Source: Amycolatopsis cihanbeyliensis (GTDB taxonomy: Bacteria > Actinomycetota > Actinomycetes > Mycobacteriales > Pseudonocardiaceae). From it: a stretch of DNA of 64,000 bases. The notes below the pieces were generated by a model. It searched no databases and had not been told where the DNA came from. It saw nothing but the letters and a program-made list of their open reading frames with translations. The translations under genes and the position numbers were made by a program. Each line of letters begins with the position of its first letter. The stretch's first letter is position 1. Of this stretch, positions 22,683-47,353 are shown one piece after another. The stretch is from contig NZ_VFML01000001.1 in the NCBI RefSeq assembly GCF_006715045.1, positions 3,068,501-3,132,500 on the forward strand. Reading direction: 5' to 3'.

Positions 22683-23966
22683 CTACTCCCGGATCGTCTC
22701 CAGCAGGACGCCCTCGCCCGCGGCGGGGGCGTCCTGCGTTCCGGTGATCGCGAGCCCCTCGCGCAGCACCTCCAGCGCGGCCGGCACGGCGTCCGGGGTG
22801 TCGGTGTGCAGCTCGAGCAGCGGCTGCCCGGCGCGCACCCGGTCACCGGGCTTGGCAAGGCAACGGATACCGGCGGCGGCCTGCACCCGCTCACCGCGCC
22901 GGGTGCGACCGGCACCCAGCCGCCAGGCGGCGACTCCCACGGCGTAGGCGTCCAGGGTGGCCAGCACGCCGTCGGACTCGGCGGTGACCACCCGCGTGTG
23001 TTCCGGGGTCGGCAGCGCGGCCTCCGGGTCGCCGCCCTGCGCGCTGATCATCCGGCACCAGGTCTCGTAGGCCTTGCCGGAGGCCAGCATCGGGGCCGGG
23101 TCCACCTCGGCCAGCCCCGCCGCGGCCAGCATCTCCCGTGCCAGCGCCAGGGTGAGCTCGACCACATCGGCGGGGCCGCCGCCGCGCAGCACCTCGACCG
23201 ACTCGGCGACCTCCACGGCGTTGCCGACCGCGTTGCCGAGCGGGACGCTCATCCCGGTCAGCAGCGCGGTGGTCGCCACCCCATGCGCGGCGCCGATCCG
23301 CACCATCGTACGGGCCAGCTCGCGCGCCTGCTCGCGCTCGCGCATGAAGGCCCCAGTGCCGGTCTTGACGTCCAGCACCAGCGCGCCGGCGCCCTCGGCG
23401 ATCTTCTTGCTCATGATCGAACTGGCGATCAGCGGGATCGACTCCACGGTCCCGGTGACGTCGCGCAGGGCGTAGAGCTTGCGGTCGGCGGGGGCCAGCG
23501 TGGGCGTGGCCGCGCAGACCACCGCGCCCACCCGCTCCAGCTGGCGGTTGATCTCCTCGACACTCAGCTCGGCCCGCCAGCCCGGGATGGCCTCCAGCTT
23601 GTCCAGCGTGCCGCCGGTGTGCCCGAGTCCCCTTCCGGACAGCTGCGGCACCGCGGCGCCGCAGGCGGCGACCAGCGGGGCCAGCGGCAGCGTGATCTTG
23701 TCCCCGACGCCGCCGGTGGAGTGCTTGTCCACGGTCGGCCGGGACACCCGCAGGTCCAGCCGCTCGCCGGAGTCGATCATCGCGCCGGTCCAGTCCGCGG
23801 TCTCGGCCGCGTCCATCCCGCGCAGGAAGATCGCCATAGCCAGTGCGGACATCTGCTCCTCGGCCACCACCTCGCGGGTGTAAGCATCGACGACCCAATC
23901 GATCTGCTCGGCGGTCAGCCGCTGCCCGTCGCGCTTGCTCCGAATGACGTCCACAACCGTGTGCAT
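22683..23966 (-). CDS. deoA: Thymidine phosphorylase
   Basis: A 427-residue pyrimidine-nucleoside phosphorylase that releases deoxyribose-1-phosphate from thymidine. The family signature KHSTGGVGDK is present near residue 80, and the helical N-terminal domain opens with VVDVIRSKRDGQRLT. ATG 23966 gives the standard N-terminus; an upstream in-frame start at 23990 would add eight residues. In many actinomycetes this gene directly follows cytidine deaminase, but here a four-gene cassette lies between them. A GTGA-N6-TCAC site lies 30 bases upstream. Confidence 0.94.
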   Translation of the reverse strand: MHTVVDVIRSKRDGQRLTAEQIDWVVDAYTREVVAEEQMSALAMAIFLRGMDAAETADWTGAMIDSGERLDLRVSRPTVDKHSTGGVGDKITLPLAPLVAACGAAVPQLSGRGLGHTGGTLDKLEAIPGWRAELSVEEINRQLERVGAVVCAATPTLAPADRKLYALRDVTGTVESIPLIASSIMSKKIAEGAGALVLDVKTGTGAFMREREQARELARTMVRIGAAHGVATTALLTGMSVPLGNAVGNAVEVAESVEVLRGGGPADVVELTLALAREMLAAAGLAEVDPAPMLASGKAYETWCRMISAQGGDPEAALPTPEHTRVVTAESDGVLATLDAYAVGVAAWRLGAGRTRRGERVQAAAGIRCLAKPGDRVRAGQPLLELHTDTPDAVPAALEVLREGLAITGTQDAPAAGEGVLLETIRE

Positions 23967-23995
23967 TGGCCCGATCCTACCGGCGAGCACTGAAA

Positions 23996-24009
23996 GTGAC
24001 CCGGATCAC
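23996..24009. promoter_or_regulatory. CRP-like site upstream of thymidine phosphorylase
   Basis: GTGA-N6-TCAC is a perfect inverted repeat matching the core of actinobacterial CRP/Cmr sites (TGTGA-N6-TCACA); the right arm extends to TCACA. It lies between the deoA start and the divergent HAD gene. cAMP-linked control of nucleoside catabolism is a known theme, but here it is inferred from one site. Confidence 0.4.
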
Positions 24010-24110
24010 ACCTTAAATGTATCGATTGGCGGTGCCGGCACGCGGGTACAAGTGTGACACTCCCCTCACCGTGGTAAACGAAACGTCACGTCTGGGGATA
24101 CGGGGGAGTT

Positions 24111-24800
24111 TTGATCAACAATGATCGAGCGCTGCCGGACCGCGCTCGCCTTTTCATTTTCGACATGGACGGAACACTGCTTCCCGATACTACGGGCCTG
24201 CTTGCCGTCGCCTCCGCACTGGACACGGTCGACGAGGTAAGGGAACTCGAACGACAATTCGCGGACGGCACGCTGAGCACCGTCGATTTCTCTCGCGCTG
24301 TGCACCGACTCTGGGGCGTCGTACCCGACGACGTCGCCCGCCGCGCCTTCGATTCCTGCGCGAAACTGGAGAAGATTCGCGAGGTCACCGAGCGCATCGC
24401 GAACGACGGAGGTATCTCCTGCCTGATTACCATGTCGCAGGACTTCTTCGCCGATCATTTCCACGAGTTCGGCTTCGACCACGTCTTTGCCAGCCCCTAC
24501 CCGAGGACGGCCGAGGCCATCACGGCGGGCGTGCCGGAGTCCGACATCCTCACCCCAGAGTCGAAGCCGTTAATCGCGGACGCGCTCTGCACGAAGCATG
24601 GCCTGCGATTCGCCGACACCGTAGCCTTCGGTGACTCGGGAAGCGATCTACCACTATTCGAGCAACTCCGGCACACCGTCGCAGTGAACGGCAACCAGCG
24701 CATCACCGAACTGAGCTCGACGAGCTACCGGGGAAATTCTCTGCTGGGCGCATACGAGGCAGCCCTTGAAATGATTGCGCTATGCCGACAGGCATCATAA
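24111..24800 (+). CDS. HAD-superfamily phosphatase, SerB-like (subfamily IB)
   Basis: A 229-residue phosphatase. Motif I is FDMDGTLLP, with the nucleophile Asp near residue 17. Motif II is a Ser in LITMSQDFF, motif III Lys is in TPESKPLIAD, and motif IV is FGDSGSDLPLF. It is closest to phosphoserine-phosphatase-like enzymes acting on small metabolites. The TTG start is the only candidate consistent with the HAD fold, with GGGGGAG just before it. The codon third positions are less GC-rich than in flanking genes, suggesting acquisition. It leads a plus-strand group with the M24-like protein and an MFS exporter. Confidence 0.85.
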   Translation: MINNDRALPDRARLFIFDMDGTLLPDTTGLLAVASALDTVDEVRELERQFADGTLSTVDFSRAVHRLWGVVPDDVARRAFDSCAKLEKIREVTERIANDGGISCLITMSQDFFADHFHEFGFDHVFASPYPRTAEAITAGVPESDILTPESKPLIADALCTKHGLRFADTVAFGDSGSDLPLFEQLRHTVAVNGNQRITELSSTSYRGNSLLGAYEAALEMIALCRQAS

Positions 24801-24843
24801 AGAAGTAATTCACATATCAGAAATGTAGACCTGGGGGTTTACC

Positions 24844-25704
24844 GTGTCCACCACGGAAAATAGTATCTCATTACGACACCCGAAAGCCGTCGAATCCTTG
24901 AATCGGGGGCGAAAGATCGTCGCGGACGCGTTCAGGGACACCTTGCACGCCTTATGTCACCGTGACGATGTCACCGAGATAGAATTCAGAGACCGCTGGC
25001 ACCGGGGAATTTCTGAATCCGAGGAAATGACCTGGGACGGCTGGTACACCCCACCGTTGATGGGCATGTCCGTATTGTTCGCCACCGCAGCCGACCCGTC
25101 CAGGGTGAACTTCCGAACTTTCCGGGACAAGAATAGTTTCGTCTCGGCCAGAACGCTCGACCCGGACAACGGAATCGTGCTCGGCTATGCCTCCAACGTA
25201 CACCGCAGGACCGGCCTGCCCGGGGACTTCGCCACCACCGTCTACCTCGGTCGCGAGCCTCGTGTGCGCGACCACTTCGCCCGCGCCCGCGAGGCATGCC
25301 GGGAGATGATCTCCGCCGTGAGTTCCGGCAGCACGGCTGGTGACCTGCACGCCGCGGCGCTGGACGCGCTGGCCAGGCGCGGGCTCAGCGGTACCACTCA
25401 CAGTGACACCGACCCGGACGGGCACAACGTCGGCCACTCCCTGCCTCGGCTACCGGTCGGCCCACTCGGCCGCACCCTGCGCCCCGAGCAGATCGACAAG
25501 CTGCGGCACGACCGGCTGTTCGTCCGGAGGGGCGGGGAGTGGGGCCTGGCCTCGGTCGAGCAGTTCACCGTGGAGCCACAGGTGGTTTCCCCCGAAGACC
25601 CGACCTTGCCCAAGATCATGCTGCATTATGTGCTGAATGCACGGCGAACTGTGACCGTCTGTGACGCATGCGAGGATCCACTACGGGATCTCGACCTTGC
25701 CTGA
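24844..25704 (+). CDS. M24 (pita-bread) family protein with altered metal site
   Basis: A 286-residue protein. Residues 90-275 match the creatinase/aminopeptidase P fold: GDFATTVYLG (second metal Asp), DGHNVGHSLPRLP (His), and EQFTVEPQV (Glu). However, the first metal Asp region reads GIVLGYASNVHRR, and the last Glu region ends early. The N-terminal 85 residues do not match the usual creatinase N-domain. It may therefore be a non-peptidase member acting on an amino-acid-derived small molecule, or metal-free. GTG start with GGGGG upstream. It follows the HAD gene by 43 bases and precedes the MFS gene by 21, probably one operon. Lower GC than neighbours. Confidence 0.75.
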   Translation: MSTTENSISLRHPKAVESLNRGRKIVADAFRDTLHALCHRDDVTEIEFRDRWHRGISESEEMTWDGWYTPPLMGMSVLFATAADPSRVNFRTFRDKNSFVSARTLDPDNGIVLGYASNVHRRTGLPGDFATTVYLGREPRVRDHFARAREACREMISAVSSGSTAGDLHAAALDALARRGLSGTTHSDTDPDGHNVGHSLPRLPVGPLGRTLRPEQIDKLRHDRLFVRRGGEWGLASVEQFTVEPQVVSPEDPTLPKIMLHYVLNARRTVTVCDACEDPLRDLDLA

Positions 25705-25725
25705 TGGCGCTGGGAGGACAAACCG

Positions 25726-26997
25726 GTGAGCACGACCGCAGGCCACTACGGCCTTGACCGCGAGCGCACCGACTGGCTGACAGTGATCCTGCTGTTCGTG
25801 GCAGGCATCGGTGCGGCGATGCACTTCGCCAAGGTGCCTGCCGCGCTGCCACTCATTTCCGCCGAACTCGGGTTTTCCCCTGTGGTCGGCGGGCTCGCGG
25901 TGTCACTGGTCGCGGTGCTCGGGATGCTCCTTGGTGTCGCGTCGGGCACGCTGGTGGACGCCTGGGGCCGGCGCAAGTTGTTGCTGTTCGCACTCGTCGT
26001 CGGTGCGCTGACCTCCGCGTTGATACCGCTGTTGCCGACATCCGGCGCGTTCCTCGGCCTACGGCTCGTCGAGGGCATCTCGCACCTGGTGATCGTCGTG
26101 GCGGCGCCGAGCCTGATGGGGGTACTCGCCAAACCTTCCGACCGCACGGTGGTGATGACGCTGTGGGGCAGCTTCTTCGCGGTGGGCTTCGCGGTGACCG
26201 ACGCCGTGGCCCCCGCGCTGCTGGACGGCGGGGGCTGGTCGACCTTGTTCTGGGCGCACGCCGGCCTCCTGCTACTCACTGCCGTGCTGGTGGCGCCGAG
26301 GCTGAGCCGGTTGGCGCGGCAGCAGACCCTGGAGCCGCCGCCTACCACCACCGACGTCCGCGCACTGCTGCGCACGCTGGTGACCGACCACAAGGTGCTG
26401 TACCGCAACCTGCCGATCGTGCTGGCCGCGTCCGGCTTCGGGCTGCACTGCCTGCTGTTCAATGCCTACCTGACCTACGTGCGGGAGGTGCTGCTCGACC
26501 GGGGGGCGCTGGACGGGGGCGGGGTAGGTCCGTGGATGGCGCTGCTGGCGCTGCTGTCCATCGGCAGCACCATCATTATTGGTGGCATCCTGCTTCGGCT
26601 CGGCGTCTCGCCGTTCACCACGCTTGTGGTGTGCTTCGCGGGCGAGGCGCTGGCGGGTGCGGCGCTGTTCACCGGCGTGCTCGGCACGGCCAGCCTACTG
26701 CCGGCCAGCATCGTGCTGTTCCTCTTCGACGGCTGCGTTCAAGGCGCGACCTTCGCCACGATCCCGCTGGTGGCCACCGACCGGATGGCGGCGCTGGCAC
26801 ACGGCGCGTTCGCCCAGACCGGCAACATCGGCAGCTTCCTCGGCCCGCCGGTGTTCGCTGCGGCCGCGGTGGCCGGTGGCTGGACAGCAGGGGCGGTGCC
26901 GACGGTGCTCGGCTGCGTGGCAGGTATCGCGTGCACCATCCTGGCGGCCAGGATGGCGCGGCGCGACACCGCACCGGCGACTAACACCCTTCGATGA
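25726..26997 (+). CDS. MFS transporter, probable exporter of the cassette product
   Basis: A 423-residue major facilitator with 12 predicted helices. The conserved loop after helix 2 is GTLVDAWGRRKLLL. The central loop near residue 205 is short. GTG start with GGGAGGA eight bases upstream. It is third in the plus-strand group after the HAD and M24-like genes, the usual place for a drug or metabolite exporter in a small biosynthetic cluster. It converges with the methyltransferase and overlaps its end by 17 bases. Confidence 0.88.
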   Translation: MSTTAGHYGLDRERTDWLTVILLFVAGIGAAMHFAKVPAALPLISAELGFSPVVGGLAVSLVAVLGMLLGVASGTLVDAWGRRKLLLFALVVGALTSALIPLLPTSGAFLGLRLVEGISHLVIVVAAPSLMGVLAKPSDRTVVMTLWGSFFAVGFAVTDAVAPALLDGGGWSTLFWAHAGLLLLTAVLVAPRLSRLARQQTLEPPPTTTDVRALLRTLVTDHKVLYRNLPIVLAASGFGLHCLLFNAYLTYVREVLLDRGALDGGGVGPWMALLALLSIGSTIIIGGILLRLGVSPFTTLVVCFAGEALAGAALFTGVLGTASLLPASIVLFLFDGCVQGATFATIPLVATDRMAALAHGAFAQTGNIGSFLGPPVFAAAAVAGGWTAGAVPTVLGCVAGIACTILAARMARRDTAPATNTLR

Positions 26998-27946
26998 GGT
27001 ATGCCTCGCCCCACCAGAAGTCGGCAACCTTGCGCGGCTCACCCTCCGGGGTGAACCCGGCCTCGATGAGATCGCGGCACCAGTCGGCCGCGGTCTGCTC
27101 GTGGTGCACCTTGTCCTCGTCCGGGCGCAGCGTGCCGAGCAGCACCGGGGCGAGGAAACCCTGCCGCACCAAGTTGTGTGGCTCCGGATACTCGGCCATC
27201 CCGGCTTCGTACCGGGTAACCACGTAGTCGAACCAGTCCGGGTGCAGCGCGTGCTCGGCGCGCGGGACGTCGAACTCGACGAGGACAAGCCTGCTCGCCC
27301 GCTCGCGCAACCAACGCAACGTGGCCGGTCGCTCCGCCGAAGGCAACGACAGCATCGCGAAGGTCTCCTGCGCGAGGTCCCAGCGCTCACCCGCGCCCAC
27401 CTGCGCCATGAAGGTGGCCATGGTTTCCTCGAACGTCCGGTGCTCGATGTCGCGCTCGGCGAGTGCCTTGGCCGTCACGGCGAGCCGCGGCCCGGACGGT
27501 TCCACGACGTCCACCCTGCCGACGTCCCCGGTCAGCGACGGCAGCAGGCCGAGACCCTCACCGGTGCCGATGTCGAGCAGCGCGGCGGGCCGTAGTTCGC
27601 GGTAGCGGGCGGTGAGTGCCTCGTGCGTACGTCGGTACAGCTCCACGTTGCCGCCGCCCCTGCCGAACGCGGAGAACGCCTCCGGCGAGATGTATACCTC
27701 GGCGGTATCCGCGGCTCCCGCTGAGCCCAGCCCGGCAAGGTAGTGCGCACACTCGGCGAACACGACGCGGGCGGGCTCCTGTCGCGACGCGGCGGTGATG
27801 TGCTCGACGGCCGCCGCGCGCGCGTCCTGCGCCTGCGCCACCAGCCCGGTGTAGAAGCGTTCCTGTGCCGTGGTCGCCATGGCGGCCACGTCGTCGTGCG
27901 CCGCACCTGCCCGGTAGGCGGCCCACAGTTGAGAAACCCCCATCAT
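26981..27946 (-). CDS. Class I SAM-dependent methyltransferase
   Basis: About 321 residues from ATG 27946; upstream in-frame starts are possible. Residues 1-125 are a helical N-terminal extension. The SAM-binding motif is LLDIGTGEGLGLLPSL, with the acidic post-motif VDVVEP. The C-terminal third has Trp-rich motifs (ADFWWGEAYLI). The extra helical region is typical of small-molecule O- or N-methyltransferases in antibiotic pathways. It lies 72 bases downstream of cytidine deaminase on the same strand and might be read through, but its partners are more likely the divergent-end HAD, M24 and MFS genes. Confidence 0.85.
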   Translation of the reverse strand: MMGVSQLWAAYRAGAAHDDVAAMATTAQERFYTGLVAQAQDARAAAVEHITAASRQEPARVVFAECAHYLAGLGSAGAADTAEVYISPEAFSAFGRGGGNVELYRRTHEALTARYRELRPAALLDIGTGEGLGLLPSLTGDVGRVDVVEPSGPRLAVTAKALAERDIEHRTFEETMATFMAQVGAGERWDLAQETFAMLSLPSAERPATLRWLRERASRLVLVEFDVPRAEHALHPDWFDYVVTRYEAGMAEYPEPHNLVRQGFLAPVLLGTLRPDEDKVHHEQTAADWCRDLIEAGFTPEGEPRKVADFWWGEAYLIEGC

Positions 27947-28018
27947 GAACCCCCAGTTCCTCCGTACCTCCCGATGCCCAGGCCCCGAGCCTAACACCGC
28001 ACCTTGCCCGAGAGCCGC

Positions 28019-28426
28019 TCACAGCAGGAAGGGCTCCGGGAAGACCGTCCGCATCGGGCGGCTACCGTTCGGGGTGTCCACCAAGCAGTCCGGGCCACCG
28101 AGCTCCAGCAGGATCTGGCGGCAACGGCCACACGGCATCAGCAGCTCGCCCTCCCCGCTGCGGCACGCGACGGCCACCAGCCGCGCACCCCCGGAAAGGC
28201 GTAGCTGGCCCGCCATCGTGCACTCGGCGCACAGGGACAGCCCGTACGAGCTGTTCTCCACATTGCAGCCGAGCACGATCGTGCCTGCGGAGGTGAGCCC
28301 GGCCGCCCCGACGTGCAACCCCGAGTACGGCGCGTAGGCCCTCGTCGCGATCTCCACCGCGCTGACCCGCAACCCCTCCCAGTCCACTGTGTCCGCGTTG
28401 TACACAGTGTCCATATCGGACTCCAT
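28019..28426 (-). CDS. cdd: Cytidine deaminase
   Basis: A 135-residue homotetrameric-type deaminase. The zinc-binding and catalytic motifs are CNVENSSYGLSLCAE (with the catalytic Glu in CAE) and PCGRCRQ. Its ATG overlaps the stop of the upstream permease (TGATG), so it is coupled to the nucleoside importer. Deaminates cytidine/deoxycytidine to uridine/deoxyuridine. ATG 28414 is an alternative start. Confidence 0.95.
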   Translation of the reverse strand: MESDMDTVYNADTVDWEGLRVSAVEIATRAYAPYSGLHVGAAGLTSAGTIVLGCNVENSSYGLSLCAECTMAGQLRLSGGARLVAVACRSGEGELLMPCGRCRQILLELGGPDCLVDTPNGSRPMRTVFPEPFLL

Positions 28427-29785: not shown

Positions 29786-30892
29786 TCATACCGAACCCCC
29801 TTCGCTCACCGAGGCGGGTTTGCCGCCCCTGCCGTTACCGCCGAAGGCCCGGCCGACCCTGCGCTGCTCGGCAGTGAGCTCGGCCCGGCGGACGACCTCG
29901 TAGGCAACCACCACGGAGAGCACGATCGTGCCCTGGATGATCGTCGCAATCTCCCTGGGCACGTCGATGAATTCGAGCGAGACCGCCGACTTGTCCAGGA
30001 AGGCCCAGAGCAACGCACCGAGCGCGATCCCCCCTGGATGGTTGCGGCCGAGCAGGGCAACCGCGATGCCGGTGAAGCCGTACTGCTGCGCCGAGGTGAC
30101 GTAGTAGACGTGGTCACGGCCCAGCAGTTCGGGCATCGCGACCAGCCCAGCGACCGCGCCGGAGATCAGCATCGCGGCCAGCACCATCTTCTTAGCGCTG
30201 ACCCCGCCTGCCGCGGCCGCGGTCGGCGACTCGCCGCTTGCTCTCAGCTCGAAGCCGAACCGGGTGCGGTTGAGCAGGAACCAGTACCCGTAGCCGAGCG
30301 CCGCAGCGACGATCGCGAAGCCGAAGATCGTGCCCGCGCCGCCGAGCGGAATCCCCGGCACCCAGCCGCTCTCATCGATCTCCGCGGTGCTGACGTTGTT
30401 GCCGCGCTGCACGCCGAACTGGTCCGGGTTGATCAGGAACGCAATGATCCCACCGACGATCGAGTTCAGCATGATCGTGGAGATCACCTCGTGCACGCCG
30501 CGGGTGACCTTCAGCACCGCCGGGATGGCCGCGTAGGCCGCACCGGCGAACGCGGCCACCAGGATGATCACCAGGGTGTGCAGCACGGGCGGCAGGTCCA
30601 TCGCCGCGCCCACGATGGCCGCGATGATCGCGGCGAACCGGTACTGGCCCTCCACCCCGATGTTGAACAGGTTCATCTGGAAGCCGACCGCGACCGCGAG
30701 CCCGGCGAGGTAGTACACGGTGGCGAGGTTGACGGTGTCCACCGCGACGTTGCCACGGCCGAGCTGGCTGACCATCGTGCCGAAGGCCCGGAGCGGGTCG
30801 GCCCCGGAGACCAGCAACGCGATCGAGGACAGCAGCACCGCGAACACGATCGCCAGCAGCGGTGGCAGCAGCGCGGAGCGCCAGGACCTCAC
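29786..30892 (-). CDS. Nucleoside ABC transporter permease 1
   Basis: A 368-residue membrane permease related to NupP-type nucleoside importers. It has GFQMNLFNIGVEGQYRFAAI in helices 3-4 and PTAAAAGGVSAKKM in the cytoplasmic loop. It starts four bases inside the ATPase gene end, thus coupled. The gap of 88 bases before the second permease holds no other gene. The first helix follows a short basic N-terminus. Confidence 0.93.
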   Translation of the reverse strand: MRSWRSALLPPLLAIVFAVLLSSIALLVSGADPLRAFGTMVSQLGRGNVAVDTVNLATVYYLAGLAVAVGFQMNLFNIGVEGQYRFAAIIAAIVGAAMDLPPVLHTLVIILVAAFAGAAYAAIPAVLKVTRGVHEVISTIMLNSIVGGIIAFLINPDQFGVQRGNNVSTAEIDESGWVPGIPLGGAGTIFGFAIVAAALGYGYWFLLNRTRFGFELRASGESPTAAAAGGVSAKKMVLAAMLISGAVAGLVAMPELLGRDHVYYVTSAQQYGFTGIAVALLGRNHPGGIALGALLWAFLDKSAVSLEFIDVPREIATIIQGTIVLSVVVAYEVVRRAELTAEQRRVGRAFGGNGRGGKPASVSEGGSV

Positions 30893-32454
30893 TCGCCCTC
30901 ACCCCCACTCTCCGCGCCGGTCATCGCCGAGCCAAGCTCCTGCGGGGTGACGGTCGCCGGGTCGGCCTCGCTAACCAGCCGTCCGCGCAGCATCACCCTG
31001 ATCGTGTCGGACAGGCCGATCAGCTCGTCGAGATCCGCCGAGACCAGCAGTACGGCCAGCCCTTCGGCGCGAGCGGTGCGGATCTGCTCCCAGATCAGCG
31101 CCTGCGCCCCGACGTCGACGCCGCGCGTGGGGTGCGACGCGATGAGCAGCACCGGCCGGCAGGAGAGCTCCCTGCCGACGACGAGCTTCTGCTGGTTGCC
31201 GCCGGACAGGGCGCCCGCGACGACGTCGATGCCCGGCGTGCGCACGTCATAGGCCTCGATGATCCGTTCGGTGTCTTTCTTCGCGCCCGCGATGTTCAGC
31301 AGCCGGCGACCAGCCACCGGTTCGCGGGTCTGGTAGCCGAGCATCCGGTTGGCCCACAGCGATTGCTTGAGCAGCAGGCCGTGCCGGGTGCGGTCCTCTG
31401 CGATGTAGCCGATGCCCGCCTCCCTGCGCGCCAGGGTGCCGAGCCGGGTGAGGTCCTGGGGTTCGCCGTCGGGGCCGGTGAGTTCGACCGTCCCGCCACC
31501 GGCTCTGCGGATACCCATCAGCGCCTCGACCAGCTCGGTCTGCCCGTTGCCCTCGACGCCCGCGATGCCGAGCACCTCGCCCGCGTGCACGGTGAACGAG
31601 ATGTCCTCGAGGACCGCGCGGCCGGCGCCCCCGGTGTCGTCGGCTGACAGTCGCAGGGCATCGACCCGAAGCACGTCACGGCCACCCACCCTCGACCGCC
31701 TGGTCTCGGGCCTCGGCAGCTCGCTGCCCACCATCATCTCGGCGAGCTGCCTGCTGCTGACCGTGGAAGGGTCGACCGTGCCGACGGTGGACCCGCGCCG
31801 GATCACGGTCACCGTGTCGGCGATGGCACGCACCTCGTCCAGCTTGTGCGAGATGAACAGGAAGGTGAAACCCTCGCGCTGCATACTGCGCACAGTGTTG
31901 AACAGCGCGTCGACCTCCTGCGGAACCAGCACCGCGGTCGGCTCGTCCAGGATCACGATGCGGGCGCCCCGATAGAGCACCTTCATGATCTCCACCCGCT
32001 GCCGGTCGGCGACGCCGAGCCGCTCCACCAGGGTGCCCGGCGCTGCCCGCAGCCCGCTCTGCTCGGCGAGATCGGCAACCCGCGCCGAGGCAGCCCTGCC
32101 AATCCCGTGCAGCGACTCCGCGCCGAGCAGCACGTTCTCCCGGACGGTCAGATTGTCGGCGAGCATGAAGTGCTGGTGCACCATGCCGATCCCGGCCGTG
32201 ATCGCGTCCTGCGGGTTGCGCAGCCGCACCTGCTCACCGTGCACCGCGATGGTGCCCTCGTCCGGCTGCTGCATGCCGTAGAGGATCTTCATCAGGGTGG
32301 ACTTGCCCGCCCCGTTCTCCCCACAGATCGCGTGCACCTCGCCCGCGTGCACGACGAGGTTGACGTCGGAGTTGGCGACCACGCCGGGGAAACGTTTGGT
32401 GATACCGGTCAGCTGGACGACCAGCTCGCCCTGGTCGGGCCGAGGTTCGTTCAT
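30889..32454 (-). CDS. Nucleoside/simple-sugar ABC transporter ATP-binding protein (two domains)
   Basis: A 521-residue protein with two fused nucleotide-binding domains. Domain 1 has Walker A GENGAGKSTLMK, a degenerate signature near RVEIMKVLYRGA and Walker B IVILDEPTA. Domain 2 has a weak Walker A (GVEGNGQTEL), a canonical LSGGNQQK signature and LLIASHPTRGVD in place of the standard Walker B. This asymmetry is normal for the RbsA/BMP-linked family. It is encoded between the BMP lipoprotein and the permeases. Confidence 0.94.
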   Translation of the reverse strand: MNEPRPDQGELVVQLTGITKRFPGVVANSDVNLVVHAGEVHAICGENGAGKSTLMKILYGMQQPDEGTIAVHGEQVRLRNPQDAITAGIGMVHQHFMLADNLTVRENVLLGAESLHGIGRAASARVADLAEQSGLRAAPGTLVERLGVADRQRVEIMKVLYRGARIVILDEPTAVLVPQEVDALFNTVRSMQREGFTFLFISHKLDEVRAIADTVTVIRRGSTVGTVDPSTVSSRQLAEMMVGSELPRPETRRSRVGGRDVLRVDALRLSADDTGGAGRAVLEDISFTVHAGEVLGIAGVEGNGQTELVEALMGIRRAGGGTVELTGPDGEPQDLTRLGTLARREAGIGYIAEDRTRHGLLLKQSLWANRMLGYQTREPVAGRRLLNIAGAKKDTERIIEAYDVRTPGIDVVAGALSGGNQQKLVVGRELSCRPVLLIASHPTRGVDVGAQALIWEQIRTARAEGLAVLLVSADLDELIGLSDTIRVMLRGRLVSEADPATVTPQELGSAMTGAESGGEGE

Positions 32455-32529
32455 CGGGTGGGCTCTCCTTGCCGAAAGCCTGGGCCCGCCGGGCGGGATC
32501 GCCGCCGCGGGCCCAGGCGTGGGTGACGC

Positions 32530-33681
32530 TCAGTTCTCCAGTTCGGCCGAGACCTTGATCTTGCCGTCGATGATCTGCTGCTTGTAGCCCTCGAGAATCG
32601 GCACAATGTCGTCGATCTTGCCGCCGGAGGTGGAATAGCCGACGCCGCCCGCGGCGAGGTCGAAGCGCTCCGGCAGCGTGGAGAGATCGTCCCTGGCCAC
32701 CGCGACGAGATAGTCGAACACGGCCACGTCGACCCGCTTGACCATCGAGGTGACGATGACGTCCTTGACCGGGTCCATCGTCTGCTGCTTGTACTGGTCG
32801 GAGTCGACGCCGATGGCCAGCGCACCGGCCGACTTGGCGGCCTGGAACACGCCCTTGCCAGAGGCCCCGGCGGCGTGGAAGAGCACGTCGGCGCCGTTGG
32901 CGATCTGCGCGGAGGACTTGGCGTTGCCCTTGGCCGGGTCGTTGAAGCCGGTAATGTCCCCGGCCGGGGTGAGGTAGTCTTCCTCGATCTGCACCTCGTC
33001 CGAGACCGCCTCGGCACCCTGCCGGAAACCCGCCTGGAACTTCTGGATCAGCGGGGTGTTCACGCCGCCGACGAAACCGACGTGGCAGTTCTCGCTCTTG
33101 TAGACCGCGGCGACCCCGGCCAGGAAGGATCCCTCCTCCTCGGCGAACAGCAGCGGGGTGACGTTCGGCAGGTCCACTGTGCCGTCGATCAGCGCGAACT
33201 GGGTGTCCGGGAACTTCGGGGCGACATCCTTGACCGAGGGCGCGTAGGCGAAGCCGACCGCGATGATCGGGCTGTAGCCCGCGGCCGCCATCTGCTGCAG
33301 GCGCTGCTTCTTGGCGTCCTCGGTCTCGTTGGCCGTCGCGGTGCTCTCGCTGACGTCGGTGACGCCGAGTTCCGCCTTCGCCTTGTCGACGCCGGCCGCC
33401 GCCGCGTCGTTGAACGAGGCGTCGCCGCGGCCGCCGAGGTCGAAGGCGAGGCCGACCCGCAGGTCGCTGGCATCGACGTCGACGGGCGCCTTACTCTCCC
33501 GCGAGCTACCTTTGGGGGGAGGCGGCGGTTCCGGAGCGGTCACGCATGGGCCCGCATCGCCCGAGCCACCCGAGTCGGCGTTGTTGGTACCGGAGTCCTT
33601 CGCACAACCGGCCAGCGTGAGCACGCCAGCCATCGCGACAGCCGCGAACATCCGGCCGCGCGTTCGAAGACTGATTCTCAT
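32530..33681 (-). CDS. BMP-family nucleoside-binding lipoprotein
   Basis: A 383-residue exported lipoprotein. The signal peptide ends in a lipobox LTLAGC. The mature part is a Bmp/PnrA-type periplasmic-binding fold that binds purine or pyrimidine nucleosides (LRVGLAFDLGGRGDASFND at the N-terminus, VGFVGGVNTPLIQKFQAGFRQG). Start 33681 is preferred; an upstream 33726 start would put 15 residues before the signal peptide. First gene of the importer operon, with an AT-rich promoter region upstream. Confidence 0.93.
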   Translation of the reverse strand: MRISLRTRGRMFAAVAMAGVLTLAGCAKDSGTNNADSGGSGDAGPCVTAPEPPPPPKGSSRESKAPVDVDASDLRVGLAFDLGGRGDASFNDAAAAGVDKAKAELGVTDVSESTATANETEDAKKQRLQQMAAAGYSPIIAVGFAYAPSVKDVAPKFPDTQFALIDGTVDLPNVTPLLFAEEEGSFLAGVAAVYKSENCHVGFVGGVNTPLIQKFQAGFRQGAEAVSDEVQIEEDYLTPAGDITGFNDPAKGNAKSSAQIANGADVLFHAAGASGKGVFQAAKSAGALAIGVDSDQYKQQTMDPVKDVIVTSMVKRVDVAVFDYLVAVARDDLSTLPERFDLAAGGVGYSTSGGKIDDIVPILEGYKQQIIDGKIKVSAELEN

Positions 33682-34021
33682 TGGCAGCCTTTCTCGTTCC
33701 CCAGTTATCAAGCTCGATTGGCGCACGGTACCCGCCGGTCAGCGGAAGACCATAAGGAGACCACCGCGCGTAATCCAAATGTTTACTCGAGCAATTGTAT
33801 ACAGTATCCTAATATGTTCGCCGGTGGTGTCTGGTCCATCACACAGACGAGGCCGAGGTTGAGTGCCGCGGACGCGGCGGGTCTAGCATCCAGTGCATCA
33901 ACGCTCGACGACCTTTGACCTCGGCATCGTCGCCGATCCGTCCCAAGTGGACGCATCTGCGGGCGTCGGAGTCGCCGGTCAGCCGGGCTCAGTCCAGCCA
34001 GACGTTGGAGGCCTTTCACCG
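33682..34021. other. 340-bp divergent intergenic region (BMP lipoprotein / sdhC)
   Basis: No convincing gene. The stretch 33775-33830 is much richer in A and T than its surroundings and holds GTATAC and TAATAT elements, so it likely carries promoters for both directions. GGAG at 34007-34010 serves sdhC. A possible longer sdhC frame beginning at 33893 lacks coding character before 34022. Confidence 0.5.
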
Positions 34022-39586: not shown

Positions 39587-40126
39587 TTACTCGGCAGTCC
39601 GAATTTCCAGCAGCGTGGACGGTCCATTCTCCGGGTCCGTTCCTTCTCCCACCGACTTCCATTCATTTTTATCGATATTGACCTGCTCGATGTCACCCTT
39701 GACGTTCAAGATTGCCTGAAGATCGTGACTGTCGGCTTTGATGAGGTAGACTTCGGAGACTTCCATCGTCACATAGCCGCCCTGCGCAGTAACCGAGAAG
39801 CAGAACTCGTTGACACTCCGACTATGCACACGGATGACGTCTGCCCCGTCGACACATTCTGTGAATAGAATTCGACCGTTACCCTTCAGGAGCTCGACAC
39901 CGCTCTCGGCCAGAATTTGATCTGCGTTCGGGTAAGATGAATCCTCCACGATAACCGGCGGTTCGGTCGTCTCCGACTTCTGCTCGATCACGTCGTCGGA
40001 CCGCTGCGCCGCCGACGCAAACTCGGAACCCTCCGACATGAACAGACTCATGGCGACAACCGCACCTACCGCCACAATCGCACTGGCACACGCCGCAAGC
40101 ACGACCCGTAACCATGAACTTCGCAT
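39587..40126 (-). CDS. Secreted or membrane-anchored small protein of unknown function
   Basis: About 179 residues from ATG 40126 (an upstream ATG at 40147 is possible). Residues 5-30 form a signal peptide or N-terminal anchor, followed by a Ser/Glu/Thr-rich linker. Residues 80-160 look like a compact beta-rich domain with two Cys (FTECVDG, EFCFSV) that could form a disulfide, and a VTMEVSEVYLI strand. I recognise no family. GC is lower than the core genes. It is divergent from the large toxin gene; the link is only positional. Confidence 0.65.
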   Translation of the reverse strand: MRSSWLRVVLAACASAIVAVGAVVAMSLFMSEGSEFASAAQRSDDVIEQKSETTEPPVIVEDSSYPNADQILAESGVELLKGNGRILFTECVDGADVIRVHSRSVNEFCFSVTAQGGYVTMEVSEVYLIKADSHDLQAILNVKGDIEQVNIDKNEWKSVGEGTDPENGPSTLLEIRTAE

Positions 40127-40408
40127 TGCTGAATTCCCCTCGTTCACTCATTCGCATTGGACCATCCGGAGCAAGATGTTGGTCCCTTTACTGATTTGCC
40201 GCATTAGCGGATAGCAGCCAGCAACCATATATGCAGAACCCAACCCGGATACTCAACTGTGATTTAAGTCACATTCCATGCTTTCCCATTTACCTGACTG
40301 ATCCGAGTCTTCTAGAATCCAGAACCCATGCGCGCCCAATGACTATTTCGACCCGAGAATTTGCGGTCGTCGATCATTGCCGTTGTCCGTATGATCAGAA
40401 ACCACTTG

Positions 40409-40414
40409 TATAAT
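40409..40414 (+). promoter_or_regulatory. Consensus -10 element (TATAAT) of the toxin gene
   Basis: A perfect TATAAT 50 bases before the toxin start; TTGTCC at 40383-40388 could be the -35 with an over-long 20-base spacer. Perfect -10 boxes are uncommon in this GC-rich sequence. Confidence 0.5.
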
Positions 40415-40431
40415 CTTTAGTGTGTTGTCGA

Positions 40432-40446
40432 GCAGCTGTTAGCTGC
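40432..40446 (+). promoter_or_regulatory. 5'-leader hairpin before the toxin ribosome site
   Basis: GCAGCT-GTT-AGCTGC forms a six-pair stem five bases before AGGGGGA. It might tune translation; a role is unproven. Confidence 0.35.
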
Positions 40447-40463
40447 AATTTCAGGGGGACTCA

Positions 40464-43400
40464 ATGGAAAACGGACTCGTTATCCTGAGACGCGTCGTCC
40501 TAGCAATCTTCGCGCTCTTGATCGTTACATCGAGTGTTCTGGCGCCGACCGCGGCGACCGAGCCGACGTCACCGACCGACCGAGCCAAGGCGGTCGAATT
40601 GCTTACAACGGGTGGTCCTGGGGTTTCCCGGGCAGCCGAGGTTGCTCTGACCGGTACCGACGCGCAACTACGCGAGTTCCTCGATACGGGCTACCAGGTG
40701 GCTGCGGAGCACGATGATCGCGTCCGGGTGGCCCAACTGCTCACCATCGGTGGCCCCGGCGTCAAGCAGTCAGCTGGTACGGTACTTTCCGGTTCCGCTG
40801 ACGACCTGCGTTCCTACCTGGATGGGGGTTGGCGCGGCCCTTGGGCTGAGGACGAGCGCGTCCGAGTCGCGCAGATCATGCACGCTGGTGGCCGCGGTGT
40901 GCGGGAAGCGGCGCAGCAGGCGTTAGACGGCGATACGGAGGATGTGACGGAGTTCCTGCTCGCTCAACAGTATGTCGCGCGCGAGCATGACGATCGGGTT
41001 CGGGTAGCGCAGATCATGCACTCCGGTGGCCCGAACGTCCAGCGGGCTGCTCAGGTTGCGCTGAACGGCTCCATCGGGGACATCCGCGACTTCCTCGAGC
41101 GCGGTCAGCACATTGCCAGGGCACGCGACCAGGAGACCGCCACGGTCGCCAGGCTGGCAGAGCTGGCCAAGTCGTCTGGCGAGACGGCCGCCAGGGAAAC
41201 CGCTGGCGCGAAGGAAGCTTCGGCCCGCGCCGTGGAGGCGGCGAGATTGGCTAAGGAAGCCGCACAACGGGCCGCAGCGGAGATGGAAGCGGCCAAGGGC
41301 GAGGCCGTCCGTGCCGCGAGCGCGGCGGGCCGGGCGGCGGATGCGGCAACTCGCGCTGCCCAAGCCGCCGAGGTCGCGATCGGCGCGGCTAACGCTGCCA
41401 ATAACGCCGCCAGGGTAGCGGCCAACGCTTCATCCAGGGCGTCGACCGCTGCCGCACTGGCCGGTCAGGCCGCCGCCCGCGCCTACAATGCCGCGGCCGC
41501 GGCTGTCGGAGACAAGGGTAAGGCTGCCCAAGCGCGGGCAGCAGCCGAGACCGCCAGGGACGTAGCAAAGAGTGCCAGGGTCGCGGCAGGGGCCGCCGAC
41601 AAGGCGATCGACGCCGTACGCGCCGCTATCGACGCCGGCCGTGCCGCGCTGAGCGCGGCCGGGCACGCCGACACCGCGGGCTCCGCCGCGGGCGAAGCCG
41701 AAAAGTACGCCGACGAGGCAGGCGCCGAAGCGGCGCGGGCGACCAGGGCGGCCGCCGACGCGCGGCGGTTGGCCGCGGAGGCCACGAGGGCAGCCAACCG
41801 GGCGACCGCGCTGGCTAACGAAGCTGCCCGCGCCGCAGCCGAAGCCAGAGACGCGGCCAACCGGGCGGCGGAACACGCCGAGGCAGCCGCGCGCGCCGCC
41901 GACGAAGCAGCAGACAGGGCCGGAGAGGCCGACGACGCGGCCAGGGAAGCGACGGCGCACGCCAACGCGGCCATCGAAGCTGCCAATGCCGCCACCACGG
42001 CCGCCAATCAAGCCCGTGCAGTCGAGGAGAAGGCGCGCCAGGCTGAGGACGAACAGCTCAGGGCCCACACCGCGGAGAAGGTGCGTCAGGCCGAGGAAGC
42101 CAAAGAGGCCGCTGATGCCAGGCAGGCCGAACTGGACTGGGAACAGGCCGAACAGACACGGCTGGACGAAGAGACCAAACGACTGATCGCCGAGGCATCC
42201 GCACCGGACGCTTCGCCACAGACAGTGCTTATCAACGGCCGCAAGATCGCCGCTCGGCTGATTCGGACCGGAGGTCCGTGGTCGGCGGAGGCCGCGACCA
42301 CAGCGCTGACCGGCGGGGAATCCGACGTCCGGCTGTATGTGCAGGACCAGCGGATCACTGCAGCGGAACAGGACGACCGCGCCCGCGTCGAATACCTGGC
42401 GGCTCGCAGCGACAACCCGGCGTTCGTGGAGGCGGCCGAGGCCGCGCTGGCTAGCAACTACCAGGACGTCCTGGAGTTCCTGCGTACCAGGAACTATCCG
42501 GGCAAGGACGACGACGATCGGGTCAAGATCGCCCAGTTGATGGCAGACGGCGGGCCCGCGATGAAGGCCGCTGCCCAGGAAGCACTGGACGGGACCGCGG
42601 AGGACCGTCGCCAGTTCCTGGAAAGTGGCCAATACACCGCGGCCGAGCACGACAACCGGATCGAGGTCGCGCAGCTCATGGACGCCGGCGGCCGCGAGGT
42701 CAAGGCCGCCGCGGAGATCGCGCTCGCCGGTCCCACCTCCTACCTGGAAGACTTCCTCCAAGTCGAGTATTTCAAGGCGAAGCGCCGCGACCTCGACTAC
42801 GCCACTCACGTCGCTGAAGTGCGCTACTTCGTCGCCGAAGCCGCCAGGGCCGCCGCACACGCACAGCAACTCGCCGCCGAGGCCGCCGAGGCAGCGGCGA
42901 TAGCCCGCGACGCGGCGGAGGAAGCAGCAGGGTATGCTCGCCAGGCTCGTGAATCGGCGGACCAGGCGCAAGGATACGCCGACGAAGCGGCCCAATCGGC
43001 CGCGCAGGCACAGGAGTCAGCCAACCAGGCGGCCGCCTCGGCTCGCGCGGCCCGCAACGCCGAAGCTTCCGCGCACGAGGCCGCCAGCAGAGCCGCGCAT
43101 TCCGCAGCTCAGGCCAGAGCGTCCGCCGCACGGGCCCGTAACCACGCCAACACCGCGGCCGCCCATGCCGCACGAGCCCGCGCCGCAGCAGAGGCCGCGG
43201 GCAAGGACGCCGAGGCGGCAACCGCCGCGGCCGACGAAGCGTGGCAGCACTACCTGCAACTGCGCAAGCAGGAGCAGACCACGCCGCCCTCGTCGGACCC
43301 GGACCAGCAGGTCAGCATCGCCGAGTTCGAGAACGGTTCATACCTAATCCACGCCGACGGCTTGTGCTACCTCAACGGCATAGCGCTGTCCAGCAGCTAC

Positions 43401-44048
43401 AACGGTGAAGCATGCAACGCACTAGCTCGCGACTTCGACAACTGGCTCGCCGGCTTCGCGTTCTTCATCAACTGGGACGGCCTGAAAGGCGCAGCCGATG
43501 CCAACGCCCGCCTACTCAAACTCTACTGCACCATCAAGAAGGGCTCTTGCAGTAGCGGCCTGGAGACCCTACTGCGAGACCTGAAGAACGCACCGCTCGC
43601 GATTCCAGAAAACGGGCCAGGAGCCGTCGCCGGCGGAGGATTCGGCCGAATCATTGGCTCCGGCAAGATCGCCAATCTCAGCAAGTATCTCGACGACTTC
43701 GCACAGCAGGCCGCCCGAGGCTGGCTACCGGAGGCGGTGCTCGCGAAGATCCCGAAAGACTGGAAGGCCGCCATACCTAACGGCAAGTGGAGGCCGGAAA
43801 CGAACACTAAGCAAGGGGTGCGTTGGTTCGGACCGAACCGCGACGCGCAGGGCATCCGCATCGACCGGGGAAACCCGACACACGAGCATCCGTCACAACG
43901 AGTGGATCATGTGGTCGTCCGCGACGGAGGCCAGTTCGTCGGCCCGAACGGGAAACGGTATCCTCCAAACTCATCGCCCAAGAAGAATCCGGAATTGCAT
44001 ATCCCGCTAACCGACTGGCTGAAATGGTCTCAGTGGAACAAACCATGA
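40464..44048 (+). CDS. ALF-repeat, alanine-rich secreted polymorphic toxin
   Basis: A 1194-residue protein. Residues 1-32 are a signal peptide. Residues 35-215 and about 590-770 are ALF-type repeats with the recurring RVRVAQ(I/L)M..GG..V..AA..AL pattern. Residues 225-565 and 780-925 are Ala-rich coiled coils. A Cys-containing linker follows. The last 77 residues (GVRWFGP, GIRIDRGNP, RVDHVVVRDGG, NGKRYP, HIPLTDWLKWSQWNKP) match the short C-terminal toxin tips, probably RNase-like, of polymorphic toxins; I cannot fix the family. Family knowledge: ALF-Ala-rich stalks expose variable toxin tips from actinobacteria. The next gene overlaps by four bases and is likely its immunity protein. Confidence 0.87.
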   Translation: MENGLVILRRVVLAIFALLIVTSSVLAPTAATEPTSPTDRAKAVELLTTGGPGVSRAAEVALTGTDAQLREFLDTGYQVAAEHDDRVRVAQLLTIGGPGVKQSAGTVLSGSADDLRSYLDGGWRGPWAEDERVRVAQIMHAGGRGVREAAQQALDGDTEDVTEFLLAQQYVAREHDDRVRVAQIMHSGGPNVQRAAQVALNGSIGDIRDFLERGQHIARARDQETATVARLAELAKSSGETAARETAGAKEASARAVEAARLAKEAAQRAAAEMEAAKGEAVRAASAAGRAADAATRAAQAAEVAIGAANAANNAARVAANASSRASTAAALAGQAAARAYNAAAAAVGDKGKAAQARAAAETARDVAKSARVAAGAADKAIDAVRAAIDAGRAALSAAGHADTAGSAAGEAEKYADEAGAEAARATRAAADARRLAAEATRAANRATALANEAARAAAEARDAANRAAEHAEAAARAADEAADRAGEADDAAREATAHANAAIEAANAATTAANQARAVEEKARQAEDEQLRAHTAEKVRQAEEAKEAADARQAELDWEQAEQTRLDEETKRLIAEASAPDASPQTVLINGRKIAARLIRTGGPWSAEAATTALTGGESDVRLYVQDQRITAAEQDDRARVEYLAARSDNPAFVEAAEAALASNYQDVLEFLRTRNYPGKDDDDRVKIAQLMADGGPAMKAAAQEALDGTAEDRRQFLESGQYTAAEHDNRIEVAQLMDAGGREVKAAAEIALAGPTSYLEDFLQVEYFKAKRRDLDYATHVAEVRYFVAEAARAAAHAQQLAAEAAEAAAIARDAAEEAAGYARQARESADQAQGYADEAAQSAAQAQESANQAAASARAARNAEASAHEAASRAAHSAAQARASAARARNHANTAAAHAARARAAAEAAGKDAEAATAAADEAWQHYLQLRKQEQTTPPSSDPDQQVSIAEFENGSYLIHADGLCYLNGIALSSSYNGEACNALARDFDNWLAGFAFFINWDGLKGAADANARLLKLYCTIKKGSCSSGLETLLRDLKNAPLAIPENGPGAVAGGGFGRIIGSGKIANLSKYLDDFAQQAARGWLPEAVLAKIPKDWKAAIPNGKWRPETNTKQGVRWFGPNRDAQGIRIDRGNPTHEHPSQRVDHVVVRDGGQFVGPNGKRYPPNSSPKKNPELHIPLTDWLKWSQWNKP

Positions 44049-44425
44049 CACAGGTTCGTTTTCCCGGCATGCGTACCGTGGTAGTCGAAGCCGTTGAGCA
44101 CCTCGCCGACGCCGAGTACCAGCAGCAGGTATGGGTACGAAAGGAGCATCCGCACGAACAAATGCCCTACACCACCGACGATGCGGTGCACGCCCTCTAC
44201 GACGACACCTCCGTCTTCGAGGAACCAGAGCACGCTGTCGGCAATGTGCTGCGCAACAAGGAGGAAGCTGAGGCATTGCAGCCATTGAAGCGAGCCCTGG
44301 ACACCGTGTTCGACGAGCTAGGCACCGATCTCGACGACGCGGAGTATGCGACCGCACCGCAGTGGGCCGTCGTCGTCGCGACCGCCCGCTCAGCGCTGGC
44401 CGTGCTGAGGGCATCCGAGCCATAA
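44045..44425 (+). CDS. SCO4402-like protein, probable immunity to the upstream toxin
   Basis: A 126-residue soluble, acidic protein. Its pattern (FPGMRTVVVEAVEHLAD, YQQQVWVRKEHPHE, HALYDDTSVFEEPE, VGNVLRNKEEAEALQPL) resembles SCO4402-family proteins often found behind secreted polymorphic toxins. The ATG overlaps the toxin stop (ATGA), so the two are translationally coupled, which strongly supports an immunity role. A hairpin terminator follows the stop. Confidence 0.72.
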   Translation: MTQVRFPGMRTVVVEAVEHLADAEYQQQVWVRKEHPHEQMPYTTDDAVHALYDDTSVFEEPEHAVGNVLRNKEEAEALQPLKRALDTVFDELGTDLDDAEYATAPQWAVVVATARSALAVLRASEP

Positions 44426-44433
44426 ACGACGAG

Positions 44434-44468
44434 AGGGTCGCTCGCTGACATACTCGGCGAGCGGCCTT
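44434..44468 (+). terminator. Hairpin with short T run after the immunity gene
   Basis: GGTCGCTCGC (44436-44445) pairs with GCGAGCGGCC (44457-44466), ten pairs including one G-T, followed by TTT. It sits 11 bases after the immunity stop, as expected for an intrinsic terminator. Confidence 0.65.
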
Positions 44469-44751
44469 TCCTCGCGGCGGCAGAACCCGCAGGTGATCGC
44501 GACCAACAAAGCTGCCACACCGACGGCGGCCGGGGCGAGGCACTCGGCCACAGACTCACCCGCGTAGCCGAACAAATCGATCACCTCGGCGTACCTGCCC
44601 TCCCTTGCGGCAGGCTGCGAATTCCTGCAGGATCAATGGCATACGCCCGCAACACACCCAAGTTCTTCTAAGATAGGGCGCGAACTATCCCTTTCAGGAG
44701 CCAACGCCAAGCGGATGTCCGGTCGCGAAACAAGGAAGATAACACGAAGGC
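44469..44751. other. Non-coding stretch between immunity gene and first remnant
   Basis: I see no supported gene in this 283-base stretch. A minus-strand open frame (44390-44584) crosses the terminator and is not credible. Local GC is lower than average. Confidence 0.4.
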
Positions 44752-45142
44752 ATGAAAATTAATTCAACAGATGACAAAGTGAAGGATCGTTTTCGGACGA
44801 GGAAGAGGACCTACCGACTTTCGGCGAGTTCCTGGAAATCCTCGGCTGGTCCATGGCCACCAACAGCGAGTTCGTGGACGACTTGCCGTTTCCCGTGACG
44901 TTCAAGGCGAGGGACAGCGACCACCGTTGGTACCATAATGATCCGTCCGATCGCGTCGCAGGGCTCAACGACAGCACGTTCAATGAGGCGTCGTATTTCT
45001 GGCATTCCTCACGGAACGAGCCCACAGCGTCAGCGAGAAGCTCGCCGCTCCGGCGGACCTCGCCAGCTACGTCCTCCAGACCCTCAAGGCGTCGACAGTT
45101 GCCTTCGCCGACGTCACTAGCCCTGATCTTTCGCGTGGCTGA
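44752..45142 (+). pseudogene. Frameshifted small gene remnant, possibly immunity-like
   Basis: The frame open from 44775 reads a coherent acidic protein: DEEDLPTFGEFLEILGW, FVDDLPFPVTFKARD and WYHNDPSDRVAGLNDSTFNEAS. After about 45000 it turns into Ser/Arg-rich nonsense. From there the frame shifted by one base reads SEKLAAPADLASYVLQTL and STVAFADVTSPDLSRG to a stop at 45142. One indel near 45000-45045 thus breaks the gene. ATG 44752 is in a third frame, so the true start is uncertain. The protein family is not recognised. Its place behind a toxin/immunity pair and beside an IS suggests orphan immunity or toxin-locus cargo. Confidence 0.6.
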
Positions 45143-46752: not shown

Positions 46753-46805
46753 TCCTTCCACGGCACGCCGCCAAACCCTCACTCCCGCGAAAGCCCGGGG
46801 CTAGC

Positions 46806-47350
46806 GACGACATACGCGAGCTCACCACGGACGACGTCTCGAGAACCGACCCGAAGCCGAAGCTCGGTGACGTGGTGGCCATCCCGGCAGAAGCACCGTC
46901 CGGGACCGGGTTTCATCTGGCTGTCGTCCTGGCCAACGACCAGTTGGGCGTGGCGGTAGGACTGCTGCAGGGAGTGTCGCCCACCCCGCGGGTGGACGAC
47001 ACCACGCAGTATCGAACTCGGCACATCCCGGTCTATACCGGAGACGAATCGATCAGGGAGGGGACGTGGCAAATAGTCGACCATCGCGACAATCTGATGC
47101 ACTTGTTCCCGAACCCGCCGGAAATGTACCTCGAGGCGAGTCCCGTGCTGGGGCAAGGCACGGAGACTACGGAGCGGCGCACTCCACTGATGGAACGAAG
47201 CGCCTCATCAGCAAGGAAGAAACGGACGTCGTGGGCCTGCTGGACGGTTCGTACGAGCAAAGCTACCCGTCCGAGCGCTTTCAGCACGTACTCAACGAGG
47301 GCCGGTTCGACAGTGGCCCCAACACCGGAGTCGCTACGCACTCTCCGTGA
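46806..47350 (+). pseudogene. Frameshifted Imm26-like immunity gene remnant
   Basis: The first frame reads DIRELTTDDVSRTDPKPK, LGDVVAIPAEAP, FHLAVVLANDQLGVAVGLLQG, GTWQIVDHRDNLMHLFPNPP. This KxGDVxAIP plus beta-strand layout resembles Imm26-type immunity proteins. Near 47150-47175 the frame shifts, and the rest reads TDGTKRLISKEETDVVGLLD, SYPSERFQHVLNEGRFDSG, stopping at 47350. No proper start remains; the 5' end was probably cut by the IS insertion. The gene it protected against is not in the window. Converges with the PQQ dehydrogenase gene. Confidence 0.6.
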
Positions 47351-47353
47351 CTG

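Follow-up and report, generated by a model that had tools for sequence, protein, structure and literature searches.

Why should a phosphatase, a pita-bread protein, a transporter and a methyltransferase stand between two genes of nucleoside salvage? The question is raised by a 64,000-nucleotide stretch of the Amycolatopsis cihanbeyliensis genome (contig NZ_VFML01000001.1, positions 3,068,501 to 3,132,500; hereafter the window), in which the minus-strand genes deoA and cdd are parted by four open reading frames (ORFs) at 24111-27946, as a first-pass annotation had already reported. Judged by sequence comparison, these four genes are a conserved and horizontally transferred cassette. As to its role, the chances seem about even that it serves the tailoring, dephosphorylation and export of a nucleoside-type compound, as a horizontally moved module of specialised metabolism.

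The first gene (24111-24800, plus strand, TTG start) encodes a HAD-IB phosphatase of 229 amino acids, the second (24844-25704, plus strand) an M24-like pita-bread protein of 286 amino acids with an apparently remodelled active site, and the third (25726-26997, plus strand) an MFS transporter of 423 amino acids, presumably an exporter. Their Pfam E-values are 4.6e-14 (HAD), 8.1e-9 (Peptidase_M24) and 8e-31 (MFS_1). The fourth gene (26981-27946, minus strand) is convergent to the MFS gene, whose 3' end it overlaps by 17 bases. Its product of about 321 amino acids is a putative S-adenosylmethionine (SAM)-type methyltransferase (MT), for which all Pfam and NCBIfam matches are sub-threshold and the SAM motif LLDIGTGEG was read in the sequence.

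That these genes belong together is indicated by a genome from another genus. Streptoalloteichus tenebrarius (L013) carries HAD(+), M24(+), MFS(+) and MT(-) genes arranged as in the window, both in order and in orientation, with protein identities of 61% for HAD, 64% for M24, 67% for MFS and 57% (57-58%) for MT, and since they lie there in other surroundings, the set is both conserved and transferred. A chance landing of four unrelated genes could be suspected from the GC content at third codon positions (GC3), which differs between the first two genes (HAD 0.74, M24-like 0.78) and the last two (both 0.88); such an assembly is very improbable and is largely refuted by the S. tenebrarius cassette, which belongs to another genus and preserves all four genes, their order and their strands, at protein identities of 57-67%. 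The first-pass remark on the clearly lower GC content of the HAD and M24-like genes stands, given a median GC3 of 0.91 across the 55 window ORFs called by a simple script and a value of 0.94 for deoA; the MFS and MT genes are mildly low. The HAD gene contains one TTA codon and the M24-like gene two, and at least one occurs in 9 of the 55 called ORFs, in one of them (MT) solely through an overlong start.

The M24-like family comprises 20 proteins, and a scan of genome contigs for it returned one locus, that of S. tenebrarius. On four further contigs (lengths 42124, 128102, 14638 and 2225) we infer a HAD-M24 linkage from the equal size of the contigs in both records, a comparison that also includes S. 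tenebrarius (334631) and that covers the HAD and M24 records. One of the four further pairs is distant (44%/40%), and in S. mutabilis (the 128102 contig) the HAD and M24 tags are consecutive (_66260/_66270). A linkage of this kind would hold for five of the eight M24 relatives listed outside the window, S. tenebrarius counted; the Actinosynnema relative (P0008) has no HAD on an equal-sized contig in the HAD list. With scoring limited to the six best first-look candidates of each genome, members turned up in 3 of 390 genomes of the taxonomic family, of which one is distant; the window genome was the sole carrier within the genus, and a 394-genome class sample scored in the same way gave the window copy alone. 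None of 72,556 plasmid records contained a homologue, and of the 23 stretches of viral contigs that matched a pattern none was confirmed.

How, then, did the cassette come to lie here? The gene deoA was detected in all 80 genomes of the genus (window genome included). For 17 of the 79 others the junction was fetched, and in every one of these loci cdd directly neighbours deoA with no cassette between them. The adjacency that the first-pass annotation took to be usual is not universal across the family, since one locus of genus g33 (L118) holds other genes between cdd and deoA, with a gap of about 2.4 kb. The contrary picture that the annotation had sketched, in which relatives keep the genes at this site and no grouping exists elsewhere, did not emerge, as the genes are absent from 17 of 17 loci and grouped in S. 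tenebrarius.

Comparison by blastn with the sister genome (G200, L038) gives 91% identity up to 23954 and again 91% from 28415. Between these points, the sister DNA matches in one 82% piece at 28028-28270, part of cdd, and we take 23955-28414 as the presumed foreign stretch. It is bordered by deoA (22683-23966, minus strand; a pyrimidine-nucleoside phosphorylase with Pfam Glycos_transf_3, Glycos_trans_3N and PYNP_C) as native flank and includes cdd itself (cytidine deaminase; 28019-28414, minus strand), whose foreign look the first reading of the locus had missed. Identity to the sister counterpart is 93% for DeoA and for ABC permease 1, against 76% for Cdd. Compared with 16 other Cdds of the genus, the window protein reaches 74% (71-79) and the sister protein 84% (82-88), and in a tree the window Cdd, which has a long branch, falls outside the group formed by its genus (support 83/72). 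Because Cdd is so much more divergent than DeoA and permease 1, cdd was probably replaced together with the cassette. Critically speaking, fast evolution of cdd may account for the same divergence, and the tree placement outside the genus is weakly supported. Among 140 family genomes no close donor-like Cdd was found, the best matches lying at 71-74%. Another stretch (29.8-33.8 kb) likewise shows about 82% identity to the sister DNA, is flanked by stretches of 91% and 96% and carries nucleoside-type ABC transporter genes. The region is therefore a mosaic, and 29800-33800 would be a second recombined or replaced piece.

To consider what the cassette might act on, we turn to its phosphatase. The protein scores 63.4 bits with TIGR01488 (cut-off 45), which places it in the HAD-IB subfamily, and the HAD motifs (DMDGT, S/T motif, K, GDSxS/TD) are intact in a 10-row alignment of which two rows begin inside the first motif. 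Its nearest solved relative is the phosphoserine phosphatase 1f5s (4.1e-10). As the solved structures nearest to the HAD protein are those of phosphoserine phosphatases and the best fold matches of the M24-like protein are mostly prolidases and aminopeptidases, the two enzymes might instead serve as phosphatase and amide hydrolase on an amino-acid or dipeptide derivative. This non-nucleotide alternative is unlikely: the score with the curated SerB equivalog stays below its cut-off (41.4 of 144.15 bits), the M24 metal ligands are not kept (see below), and the HAD relatives cluster with nucleotide genes.

That clustering, the best available clue to function, is seen in the family genomes. At 1e-20, HAD matches occur in 33 of 390 genomes at 38 places, 36 of them outside the two cassettes. 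The neighbourhoods were probed for adenosine deaminase (ADA), nicotin(am)ate phosphoribosyltransferase, Prs, PncC and PyrF-like, nucleoside-kinase-like and NUDIX proteins, and a gene of nucleoside or nicotinamide adenine dinucleotide/phosphoribosyl pyrophosphate (NAD/PRPP) metabolism lies within 4 kb of 34 of the 36 non-cassette relatives (30 of 32 without the four probe-source loci). As a control, 26 tiles measuring about 8.6 kb were taken from other fetched loci and from the parts of the window that lie beyond 18-33.8 kb, and none gave a match to these probes. The 34 comprise 23 loci with the phosphoribosyltransferase, 8 with ADA and one each with Prs only, a nucleoside-kinase-like and a NUDIX gene. 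Seven of the eight ADA loci come from genus g33, and in L118 the HAD gene directly follows ADA inside the same salvage block as in the window; the closest non-cassette HAD (L115) likewise adjoins ADA. Two labels are to be read loosely, namely the nucleoside-kinase-like one (L116; no Pfam match at 1e-5, NCBIfam matches below cut-off) and the PyrF-like one (48.3 of 208 bits). Plasmids add to this: of 13 records with a HAD match, five were opened and all five have nucleotide-type neighbours, with prs, hpt, NUDIX, HAD and MFS genes in Streptomyces, nicotinate phosphoribosyltransferase at two Rhodococcus loci, ribokinase, Prs and nucleoside hydrolase in Arthrobacter, and nicotinate phosphoribosyltransferase, PfkB and Prs in R. 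aetherivorans. In short, this context suggests nucleotide substrates for a HAD-IB group so far annotated merely as phosphatase.

The phosphoribosyltransferase loci form a type of their own. The enzyme, named nicotinate phosphoribosyltransferase by NCBIfam, is one that we take to be of the nicotinamide-using type. It stands with HAD-IB in L120 (6352-10754), L119, most of L144-L165, L171, L172 and L174, and many of the 23 loci also carry Prs, some PyrF-like and PncC genes. The grouping, found in one genus and on Rhodococcus plasmids, is a possible NAD/nicotinamide mononucleotide (NMN) operon and may be likened to phage NAD+ reconstitution gene pairs. From here one could argue that the cassette is a pyridine-nucleotide module, in which the HAD enzyme converts NMN to nicotinamide riboside (or an analogue) before methylation or other alteration and export, as 23 of 36 HAD relatives and all three opened Rhodococcus plasmid loci adjoin the phosphoribosyltransferase, often with Prs and sometimes PncC. 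We regard this as quite improbable, for the HADs in question are 30-39% identical to the cassette HAD, while the closest non-cassette one lies beside ADA. Taken together, the HAD-IB proteins encoded beside phosphoribosyltransferase-Prs or ADA are related to that of the cassette (30-61%), but their genomes contain no member of the M24-like family, and they probably serve salvage rather than a specialised product.

The neighbourhoods of the MT and M24 relatives agree with the HAD signal, if more weakly. Besides that of S. tenebrarius, the closest MT relatives are found in G019 (58%) and G681 (48-50%). In the latter (L097, 1318-10163), genes for an adenylation enzyme, a carrier protein, an ectoine-synthase-like cupin, an acyl-CoA dehydrogenase, an Indigoidine_A/PsuG protein (Pfam Indigoidine_A 1.2e-100; no NCBIfam match), a HAD, an MFS and an Amdase-like protein are followed by the MT gene, with transporter genes beside it. 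By analogy, this locus resembles a showdomycin-like C-nucleoside cluster, the showdomycin set including a cyclase, a non-ribosomal peptide synthetase, a carrier protein, oxidation, a C-glycosynthase and a phosphatase in the published account (PMC8724604). The distant Umezawaea-type M24 relative (G060, L054 5120-11437), for its part, adjoins a deformylase and a PfkB kinase, with a second purM within about 4 kb (57% to the other copy) and an NB-ARC/TPR regulator nearby, and its locus is a possible separate purine-like natural product cluster. The HAD, MT and M24 families hence lead, each along its own route, to nucleotide metabolism, and the remaining protein is an MFS carrier; we therefore interpret the cassette as a module for the tailoring and export of a nucleoside-type compound.

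Which step could fall to the M24-like protein? It has the M24 (pita-bread) fold, and profile alignment with four M24 proteins of the same genome (L063-L066) allows its ligand positions to be compared with the usual set, which we take to be D, D, H, E and E. The first D is replaced by Y115 (Y in 19 of 20 rows, F in one), the second is kept as D128, the H corresponds to the variable position 194, and the first E is kept as E244. The second E becomes H261 by motif reading, the ligand alignment ending before that point. The five ligands of an M24 metallopeptidase are thus incomplete, and on that ground the protein is unlikely to be an active M24 peptidase. Across the family, D128, H198, E244 and H261 are kept and may be able to bind one metal; R87, R94, S187, D190, R224 and GWYxPP are invariant, pointing to a conserved active site of its own. 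No model more specific than PF00557 was found for the protein in the libraries scanned (Pfam, NCBIfam), which fits with the very narrow distribution of the family (3 of 390 family genomes). Other pita-bread non-peptidases are creatinase (1chm), the ectoine hydrolase DoeA/EutD, the dimethylsulfoniopropionate lyase DddP and Spt16. Compared with these, the cassette protein has no N-terminal domain, and DddP keeps the dimetal site whereas the cassette family does not have the usual ligands.

In the proposed scheme, the M24-like enzyme would remodel a nucleotide or a group attached to it, probably by cleaving a C-N bond with no classical dimetal centre involved. The 5'-phosphate would then be taken off by the HAD-IB enzyme, the MT would cap the product and the MFS protein would export it. 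From the sequences we infer the nucleotide substrate, the step order, the chemistry and the idea of one pathway common to the four proteins. The first-pass suggestion of a small phosphorylated and then exported metabolite is compatible with all this and is sharpened by the neighbours of the HAD, MT and M24 relatives to a nucleotide or nucleoside; the step order, the product and the choice between biosynthesis and detoxification are still proposals. More tentatively, the HAD-M24 pair might form the centre of a type of minimal cassette for nucleoside natural products that has yet to be described. Its pita-bread enzyme, having given up the dimetal site, would break a C-N (or C-C) bond of a nucleotide in a new kind of reaction, and the cassette would have moved between genera as a unit, displacing the host cdd when it arrived. 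If true, this would mean new chemistry for the pita-bread fold and a four-gene handle on a nucleoside-type product, small enough to be cloned whole.

Several points weigh against the nucleoside reading. On the side of the phosphatase, 22 of the 23 phosphoribosyltransferase loci come from one genus (g5) and are non-independent, which brings the independent settings to about five, two of them (kinase-like, NUDIX) resting on probes from their own loci. Two loci (L139, L143) have no probe match within 4 kb, the 26 control tiles are from other fetched loci rather than random genome positions, and the context HADs are 30-42% identical to the cassette HAD, bar one at 61%. The HAD of the showdomycin-like locus gave no match to that of the cassette, and no HAD match was found in the 18.6 kb fetched around the Umezawaea-type M24 relative, nor on an equal-sized contig in the HAD list for any of 11 more distant M24 relatives. 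MT relatives occur widely, in 125 of 390 family genomes, and most belong to a type with 37-49% identity. With the Streptomyces plasmid exporter the cassette MFS protein reaches at best 23% (E 0.02), and it has no match to the exporter of the showdomycin-like locus. The cassette itself contains no base-making or glycosylating enzyme. Finally, the position next to cdd and deoA may be coincidental, since the S. tenebrarius cassette sits in unrelated surroundings that form no nucleoside block.

The main rival takes the same four proteins as detoxification or self-protection, with the phosphatase, the hydrolase-like protein, the MT and an efflux pump disarming and expelling a nucleoside-type toxin. 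It is suggested by minimycin, where the phosphatase/exporter pair MinCN/MinT is described as a safeguard (PMC8724604). A protective role would also suit a cassette that moves as a unit without a scaffold-building enzyme, and the 58% MT relative of G019 adjoins, in divergent orientation, a stand-alone threonyl-tRNA synthetase-like gene (L096 7301-8596, TIGR00418 448 bits), possibly a resistance copy. On the other hand, the constancy of the four-gene set, and an enzyme family known from few other settings, would suit a pathway equally; matches of the MFS protein to NCBIfam resistance models are far below their cut-offs, and PADLOC anti-phage models gave no family at 0.001 for any of the four proteins, in searches that included no dedicated resistance library. 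All in all, we see detoxification as possible, with a minor share of the probability, and retain the tailoring and export module as the preferred reading.

As parts, the four proteins are of known kinds. The showdomycin and minimycin clusters share with the cassette a phosphatase and an exporter, and the showdomycin-like L097 an MT relative as well, but C-glycosynthase, carrier protein and adenylation genes are all absent from the cassette. No PsuG-like C-glycosynthase was found among the four cassette genes or the scanned flanking genes, the rest of the genome being unsearched for PsuG. The angustmycin cluster (PMC8599513) combines the AMP (adenosine monophosphate) phosphatase AgmB, the pyrophosphokinase AgmC and the MFS proteins AgmT1/T2. 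It thus pairs a nucleoside-releasing HAD with MFS export, as proposed for the cassette, AgmB being likened by its description; its pyrophosphokinase, phosphoallulosyl transferase and dehydratase have no place in the cassette block. That no described pathway has this gene set, as first supposed, agrees with our literature searches, which among the open-licence PMC papers listed found no description of the four-gene grouping or of the M24-like family; the words 'M24' and 'peptidase' do not occur in the main text of PMC12648386.

Elsewhere in the window, several ORFs at 39587-47357 have low GC3 (0.65-0.86) and probably form another foreign island, with a by-eye resemblance to transposase pieces near 45.3-46.7 kb.

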